Shown: one piece after another, positions 1,203 to 25,073 of the stretch
Position numbering within the stretch: position 1 is the first letter of the stretch
How the letters are laid out: the number at the start of each line of letters is the position of its first letter
Source of the DNA: Thermoplasmata archaeon
GTDB lineage: Archaea > Thermoplasmatota > Thermoplasmata > Lutacidiplasmatales > UBA184
NCBI GenBank assembly: GCA_021819135.1
Contig: JAKASE010000003.1
Location: forward strand, 62,001 to 126,000
Reading direction: 5' to 3'
Length of the DNA stretch: 64,000 bases
Notes under the pieces: model-generated
What the model saw: the letters and a program-made list of their open reading frames with translations, nothing else
The model's database searches: none
What the model was told of the DNA's origin: nothing
Made by a program: the position numbers and the translations under genes

Positions 1203-1223
1203 CGATCGCGGATCGGAGAGGAG

Positions 1224-1297
1224 TGCGGGCACCGGGATTTGAACCCGGGTTATAGGCTTGGCAAGCCTATGTGATAACCAGACTACACTATGCCCGC
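1224..1297 (-). tRNA. tRNA-Gly (anticodon GCC)
   Basis: Reverse complement GCGGGCATAGTGTAGTCTGGTTATCACATAGGCTTGCCAAGCCTATAACCCGGGTTCAAATCCCGGTGCCCGC forms a cloverleaf; anticodon loop TTGCCAA; T-loop GGTTCAAATCC. Confidence 0.95.
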
Positions 1298-1324: not shown

Positions 1325-1471
1325 CTAAAGCCGCTGGCGGGAACTCATCGTGCGAGGTGTCGTGGACCCGGGGCACGTCGAACAGCAGTCCGCTCCCACC
1401 GAGCAGCAGGCGCAGCACTTGCAACACGACGTACACTGGCAGCAGGCACAGGCCGGGCCGACCGCGACCAT
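1325..1471 (-). CDS. 48-aa cysteine-rich microprotein (13 Cys), unknown function
   Basis: Codon-by-codon read: MVAVGPACACCQCTSCCKCCACCSVGADCCSTCPGSTTPRTMSSRQRL*. TATA-like CTTTACGTAG (1494-1503) about 27 bp upstream of ATG. Too short for the supplied ORF track. Confidence 0.55.
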   Translation of the reverse strand: MVAVGPACACCQCTSCCKCCACCSVGADCCSTCPGSTTPRTMSSRQRL

Positions 1472-1576
1472 GAGGGGCGGAAGGGCGGACCGCTACGTAA
1501 AGCTCGCTCCGCCGGTCGCCTCGGTTCCCATTATTACCGCCGAAGGGTCGTAGTCGGCTTCGGCCGAGGGGGCCCG

Positions 1577-2347
1577 TTGGACGAAGTCTGGAAGGCCGGC
1601 GACACCGGCGTGCTGAAACGCGCCGGGCACCCCGCGCGTCTCGTCCGTCTGGCGGAGGGACCACAGCCGGTCGGCGAGGAGGGGGTCATCGATCTCACCG
1701 CGCAGATCGGGCGGACGCCGGGCGAGAGCGTCGTCTGGTCGGGGACCCCGTTCGCGCTCCTGCGGCCGTCGCTCTCCGACCTTCTGGCCGGGGTGCGACG
1801 GGGCGCGCAGATCATCACCCCGAAGGACGCGGTGCGCCTCCTCTATCTCGCCGGGGTTGGACCCGGAGGTCACGTCGCGGAGGCCGGCAGTGGGAGCGGC
1901 GCCCTGACGATCGCCCTCGCGTACGCGGTCGGACCGAGCGGTCATGTGACCTCGTTCGATCGCCGACGGGAGTTCCTTGCCGCCGCCCGGTCGAACGTCG
2001 CCCGCTCCGGTCTGGGGGACCGTGTGACGTTCCGGGAGCGGGACGTTGCCACCGAGGGGATCGACGTCTCGGGTCTCACGAGCATCGTGCTCGATCTTCC
2101 CGAGCCGTGGGCGGTCCTCGCCGCGGTCCGGGTCGCCCTCGCCCGGGGGGGTTTCGTGGCGACGTACACGCCGACGTACAACCAGCTCGAGCGGACGATC
2201 CGGGCGCTCCGCGAGCTCGCCTTCGACGAGGTCCAGGCGCTCGAGGTGCTCGAGCGGGGGCTCCACGTCGGCGAGGGGGGGACCCGTCCGGAGTTCGAGA
2301 TGCTGGGCCACACGGGCTTCCTCGCCAGCGGCCGCAAGGTTGACTGA
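1577..2347 (+). CDS. trmI: tRNA (adenine-N1)-methyltransferase, TrmI family
   Basis: Frame of ORF 1271-2347; VVWSGTPFALLRPSLSDLL...AEAGSGSGALTIALAYAVGPSGHVTSFD. TTG start inferred. Confidence 0.82.
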   Translation: MDEVWKAGDTGVLKRAGHPARLVRLAEGPQPVGEEGVIDLTAQIGRTPGESVVWSGTPFALLRPSLSDLLAGVRRGAQIITPKDAVRLLYLAGVGPGGHVAEAGSGSGALTIALAYAVGPSGHVTSFDRRREFLAAARSNVARSGLGDRVTFRERDVATEGIDVSGLTSIVLDLPEPWAVLAAVRVALARGGFVATYTPTYNQLERTIRALRELAFDEVQALEVLERGLHVGEGGTRPEFEMLGHTGFLASGRKVD

Positions 2348-24881: not shown

Positions 24882-25073
24882 TCACCCGATCTCGATGGCG
24901 CCCACGGGGCAGGCCTTGACGCAGACGTCGCAGCGCGTGCAGACCTTCTCGTCGAACGTGATGCGGGTCTCGTCGAGGTAGATGCAGTTCAGCGGGCAGA
25001 TGCCGACGCACGCCCCGCAGTAGATGCACAGCTGGCCGGACGACTCGATGTGAAGGCTCCGCTTGCTCGCCAC
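24882..25073 (-). CDS. 2x[4Fe-4S] ferredoxin
   Basis: CIYCGACVGICPLNC...CTRCDVCVKACPVGA. GTG start chosen because TATA (TTTTATA, about 25106-25112) would place ATG 25091 upstream of the TSS. Confidence 0.9.
   Translation of the reverse strand: MASKRSLHIESSGQLCIYCGACVGICPLNCIYLDETRITFDEKVCTRCDVCVKACPVGAIEIG

Follow-up and report, generated by a model that had tools for sequence, protein, structure and literature searches.

Metallothioneins, known from vertebrates, protists, fungi and bacteria, are small cytosolic proteins with CxC, CC and CxxC motifs, nearly devoid of aromatic residues and histidine in their core and weakly constrained between the cysteines, a set of traits shared by the microprotein described here, whose cytosolic location is predicted. 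Short, leaderless and cysteine-rich open reading frames are also found in mycobacteria, where polycysteine ORFs have been reported as cysteine-responsive attenuating leaders. Among the bacterial metallothioneins of the SmtA/BmtA type, for which soft-metal buffering is proposed as it is below, the Pseudomonas member forms Zn3Cys9His and Cd4Cys9His clusters (PMC7387436); the literature searched yielded no account of archaeal proteins of metallothionein type. A further point of comparison is given by the mer systems, in which MerB has the signature residues Cys96, Asp99, Cys117 and Cys159, and a 2021 survey noted that merA is missing from about half of the genomes that carry merB, raised the question of how their cells withstand the Hg(II) set free, and urged work on thiols in these taxa (PMC8261052).

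The locus under study lies in a stretch of 64,000 nucleotides, here called the window, from a Thermoplasmata archaeon of the Lutacidiplasmatales, which are soil Thermoplasmatota with about 69% GC and genomes of about 2.1 Mb (PMC9287336); the window has a GC content of 71% and the genome a size of 2.2 Mb. The features that concern us are the following:

1223..1297, minus strand: tRNA-Gly(GCC), lying downstream on the same strand; outside the conserved context of the family except in the relative G007
1325..1471, minus strand: gene of the 48-aa cysteine-rich microprotein, ATG at 1471-1469 and stop TAA at 1327-1325; member of a conserved family
1373..1450, minus strand: conserved core CxCCxCxxCCxCCxCCx5CCxxC with 13 invariant Cys (C8-C33), from alignment A1 and the codon test on 54 sequences
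1494..1502, minus strand: TATA-like promoter element CTTTACGTA, from its position, which coincides with the AT-rich peak of the orthologues
1574..2347, plus strand: TrmI/GCD14-type tRNA methyltransferase, divergent upstream neighbour (Pfam GCD14, E 4.4e-27)

Translation of the minus strand from 1471 to 1325 yields MVAVGPACACCQCTSCCKCCACCSVGADCCSTCPGSTTPRTMSSRQRL*, exactly the 48-residue peptide that a first-pass annotation, made from the letters of the window, had read there. The count of 13 cysteines given with it also stands, but not the span of 34 residues, since the cysteines fit in 26 residues (C8-C33) and are therefore denser than stated; they make up 27% of the protein (13/48 aa). The ATG at 1471 is the sole in-frame ATG, GTG or TTG between the upstream stop codon and the first cysteine. 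The tRNA-Gly(GCC) and TrmI/GCD14-type genes named as neighbours were both found, and the TATA-like box with leaderless geometry that had been proposed is likewise borne out: the near end of the element lies 23 nt and its far end 31 nt 5' of the A of the ATG, and over 54 orthologues the upstream AT content peaks at -31 to -24 (permutation p = 0.0005), in a profile aligned on inferred starts of which some are uncertain. As this peak sits where the TATA box of an archaeal leaderless transcript is expected, at about -31 to -24, leaderless expression is probable.

The 48-aa ORF is a genuine gene under protein-level selection. Elsewhere in the window the highest density is 7 Cys per stop-free stretch of 34 residues, none of 40 windows of 64 kb simulated with a first-order Markov model reached a value of 7 or more, and a search of 672 kb of related DNA for stretches with 10 or more Cys in 34 residues turned up only members of the microprotein family or degenerate copies. 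The coding frame has an overall pS of 0.73 against a pN of 0.20, and over the same 54 sequences the sense +1, sense +2 and two antisense frames have no synonymous excess; the antisense frame anti1 does have one (pS 0.55, pN 0.24), which is attributed to shared third positions. All 13 Cys positions are invariant in the 54 full-length sequences from five genera, which were gathered with a motif requiring Cys and thus favouring invariance, although the profile search that supplied them had no such requirement and only 2 of its 56 matches failed. The first-pass annotation had named loss of the cysteine spacing or of the frame in relatives as the observation that would speak against the gene; both are kept throughout these sequences. 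The remaining sites are weakly constrained, except for Ala14, nearly fixed (52/54), and position 17, which is mostly Ser. Indeed, invariant cysteines among nearly free intervening sites are the pattern to be expected if the thiols are the working parts. The core consists of Cys to 50%, with 0 Trp, 0 Tyr, 0.1% Phe and 0.5% His, and the stretch before the first Cys (5-23 residues) is the least conserved part of the protein.

A protein search of the genus retrieved many homologues at other loci, and a profile built from 29 sequences (alignment A1) has matches in 54 of the 103 genomes of the archaeal family, in five of its seven genera and almost always with one copy per genome. All Cys are present in 54 of the 56 fetched loci; in the other two the gene is degenerate (L147, genome G082, at about 8652) or lacks several Cys (L155, a second copy in G467, at about 8359), which suggests decay or a diverged paralogue. 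Beyond the family no convincing match turned up when 399 genomes sampled from the class and 392 from the phylum were searched; of two weak matches in the phylum, the one at 18.7 bits gave no CC-rich frame and the one at 16.3 bits is a brief run of CC that seems fortuitous. An origin in viruses or plasmids was also considered and discarded, as phages and plasmids have no match and the pattern matches in IMG/VR turned out to be triplet repeats or Cys-rich frames unrelated to the family. Among near-complete genomes, 18 of 36 have the gene, which is thus accessory.

The orthologues sit at differing loci with neighbours that vary from species to species, and local synteny is common only within clades. 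A conserved position between tRNA-Gly and trmI was rejected: in 18 relatives this gap (56-763 bp) is without the gene, and in G007 alone does the gene stand beside the same tRNA, on its other side. The search at this locus that the first-pass annotation had recommended would therefore have missed the family and led to a wrong refutation. The varied neighbours and the empty gaps indicate that the gene mostly stands on its own and shifts its position in the course of evolution.

As regards its relationships, no relative of the microprotein was found in Pfam, NCBIfam, PHROG or PADLOC and no convincing one in the PDB, where no metallothionein chain was matched at E <= 10; the first-pass annotation, too, had recognised no family. 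The sole PDB profile match is the Cys-rich region of HIV-1 Tat (E 0.004), a zinc-binding stretch whose likeness is compositional only and for which no homology is claimed. The protein family is so far undescribed, and annotation pipelines may well overlook such genes, which have fewer than 60 codons and no model. The metallothionein-like composition noted at first reading agrees with the compositional part of the operational definition of that class: low mass with a Cys content within 15-35%, conserved CxC, CC and CxxC motifs, and rare aromatics and His in the core; the metal-thiolate cluster that also belongs to the definition is predicted. Since the composition fits while no known metallothionein family matches in Pfam or NCBIfam (a comparison in which the HMMER bias filter may penalise Cys-rich queries), we regard the protein as one that probably works like a metallothionein but stands outside the existing families. 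It differs from described metallothioneins in having no detectable sequence relationship to them, in the order of its motifs (CxCCxC-xx-CCxCCxCC-x5-CCxxC), in its half-cysteine core and in its occurrence, which is archaeal and, within the scope of our searches, limited to one family; in contrast with SmtA/BmtA it has 13 Cys, no conserved His and no Pfam match.

A Pfam scan of the neighbouring genes showed MerB twice, and a family-wide search was thus carried out, which gave 22 MerB-like matches in 18 of the 103 genomes. Five of these 22 genes adjoin the microprotein gene on the same strand (five of about 55 loci of the latter). A short MerB-like gene lies directly downstream in four genomes, starting 3 nt past the stop codon in G460, overlapping it as GTGA in G008, and following at +19 nt in G032 and at about 90 nt in G015, and the four contexts have no other neighbour in common; in G069 the MerB gene is upstream. 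Assuming about 1500 genes per genome, chance would give at least five co-directional adjacencies in 22 with a probability of about 3e-12 and at least two with about 1e-4, the latter being the fairer figure if some pairs were inherited together. Among rare genes, MerB alone is met repeatedly beside the microprotein gene in unrelated contexts. The microprotein gene is present in 15 of the 18 genomes with MerB and in 39 of the 85 others (Fisher p = 0.004; p = 0.056 within genus g1), a test confounded by phylogeny, as six out of six g166 genomes carry both genes. Conversely, MerB was undetected in 39 of the 54 gene-bearing genomes, that of the window included, the metagenome-assembled genomes being incomplete. 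With the same incompleteness, no MerA scores above the TIGR02053 cut-off in any of the 18 MerB genomes; bona fide MerA is found in 13 other genomes, so that the two co-occur in 0 of 103, which is not significant (p = 0.12). The genome of the window has neither a detected MerB nor a MerA above the cut-off.

The short MerB-like proteins form a subfamily of about 120-150 aa, encoded directly downstream of the microprotein gene at L133, L126, L127 and L115, with a further member at L277; the others are 40-48% identical to the L133 protein, and the signature of the subfamily is CxxD...CPxCG...C. They are without the N-terminal domain of classical MerB and pass the Pfam cut-off (38 bits against 27), and in alignments with the solved MerB, at weak sequence E-values, all four signature residues are kept. 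The subfamily may represent a minimal form of alkylmercury lyase or a different metal enzyme, and proteins with the MerB fold can serve other functions as well. The mer systems share with these loci MerB as a recurrent, operon-like partner; the microprotein, in contrast, is none of the known Mer components (MerP, MerT, MerA, MerR) and comes without an accompanying MerA.

Considering these data together, the explanation that we regard as likely is a probably leaderless gene, monocistronic in this proposal, for a cytosolic metallothionein-like sink of soft metals, which would take up Hg(II) where it is linked to MerB. The 13 reduced Cys (CxCCxCxx(x)CCxCCxCC-x5-CCxxC) would bind soft, thiophilic metals in a multinuclear cluster of metal thiolates, the small Ala and Ser between them being kept so that the chain can fold tightly, and the protein would serve the cell as an auxiliary sink for soft metals that are toxic or in excess. 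That it is a metal-thiolate protein is very probable, because it is short, without an apparent signal, has 13 invariant Cys, an odd number, and almost no aromatics; an odd number of Cys in a reducing cytosol suits metal thiolates. Expression of the gene, metal binding, the identity of the metal and the role in mercury handling are points that we infer. Where the gene is co-transcribed with the short MerB-like lyase, in species without mercuric reductase, the protein would most plausibly take up the Hg(II) arising from carbon-mercury cleavage. Mercury is not the general explanation, since 39 of the 54 gene-bearing genomes have no detected MerB, and general soft-metal buffering is the safer claim because the genome of the window is one of them: the general role is probably broader, namely soft-metal or thiol-stress protection, and the MerB operons point to mercury in some species. 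Mercury as a main physiological ligand is doubtful, and a putative, genetically encoded archaeal mercury sponge, to which MerB would hand its Hg(II) directly in organisms that have no MerA, is somewhat more doubtful still. If true, microprotein and minimal MerB would constitute a MerA-independent module of organomercury detoxification, a peptide rich in thiols and produced together with MerB would explain how merA-less cells cope with Hg(II), and the family would be the first of metallothionein type described in archaea, as far as our literature search shows.

Other readings of the gene have been weighed against this one. There is practically no chance that the ORF is a non-coding artefact, either a TGC-phase triplet repeat, which the first-pass annotation had allowed for, or an antisense shadow of a plus-strand ORF: triplet repeats do give CC-rich frames elsewhere, and account for most viral-contig matches of the same pattern, but here the 702 Cys codons of the 54 sequences alternate between TGC (546) and TGT (156), never changing at positions 1 and 2, and the intervening residues vary, which rules out a repeat. 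Purifying selection acts in the coding frame, the gene is found at many loci with one copy per genome, and stop codons interrupt the antisense frames of the core in 2-8 of the 54 orthologues, with anti1 alone in synonymous excess. A cysteine-responsive leader peptide, on which the ribosome would stall when Cys-tRNA is scarce and so attenuate the downstream gene, would agree with an ORF that is short, Cys-rich and probably leaderless like its mycobacterial counterparts; it is nevertheless very improbable and was rejected on orientation and neighbour statistics, since of 44 downstream genes no more than 24 share the direction of the ORF (of the upstream genes, 24 of 43) and the downstream genes belong to unrelated families, none being fixed as in an attenuator, and the next downstream feature in the window is a tRNA gene. 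In addition, the conservation over five genera of all the Cys and their spacing, and of several other residues, is needless for attenuation. Slightly less remote, yet improbable, is an exported disulfide-rich peptide or RiPP precursor, to which the small size, Cys density and variable N-terminus would be suited: a signal peptide is not apparent by eye, the least conserved N-terminus holds no conserved leader, maturases or transporters do not recur (a radical-SAM-like gene is found in one locus only), and the number of Cys is odd.

Quite possible, on the other hand, is a general thiol-redox or Zn/Cu buffer, serving storage or donation of essential metals with no part for mercury, in which case the adjacency to MerB would be incidental or reflect co-regulation under thiol stress. 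Most carriers are indeed without MerB, and some neighbours would fit such a function: a P-type ATPase that has a YHS domain and a CPC motif, at a distance of up to 1.2-1.3 kb in L120 and L150, an HMA P-type ATPase akin to it some 3 kb off in L135, MsrB in four g28 loci, an IscA-like protein in two, and DtxR with a NicO-like transporter in one, several of them recognised by eye. However, no essential-metal gene recurs adjacent to the microprotein gene beyond closely related genomes, in neighbour counts taken without a background, and recurrence in unrelated contexts is, for a rare gene, seen with MerB only. HMA domains are found in only 3 of the 103 genomes and have no general link to the microprotein gene, and most loci are without a metal-related neighbour.

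Some recurrent arrangements were also observed within clades. In genera g28 and g166, nine loci (L131, L136, L142, L144, L145, L146, L149, L153 and L154) have ribA (GTP cyclohydrolase II; Pfam GTP_cyclohydro2) directly upstream of the microprotein gene, and in g28 the latter is followed by msrB. An OB-fold (Ssb/RPA-like) gene precedes directly on the same strand in five g1 loci (L101, L102, L103, L117 and L135), and in two loci related to each other, L114 and L123, an IscA/HesB-like protein, identified by eye and carrying a GGGGCCGGGG stretch, is encoded convergently to the microprotein gene. In the window itself, the next Cys-densest stretch is found at 25031 on the minus strand, LCIYCGACVGICPLNCIYL, and resembles an ordinary ferredoxin-type 4Fe-4S motif.
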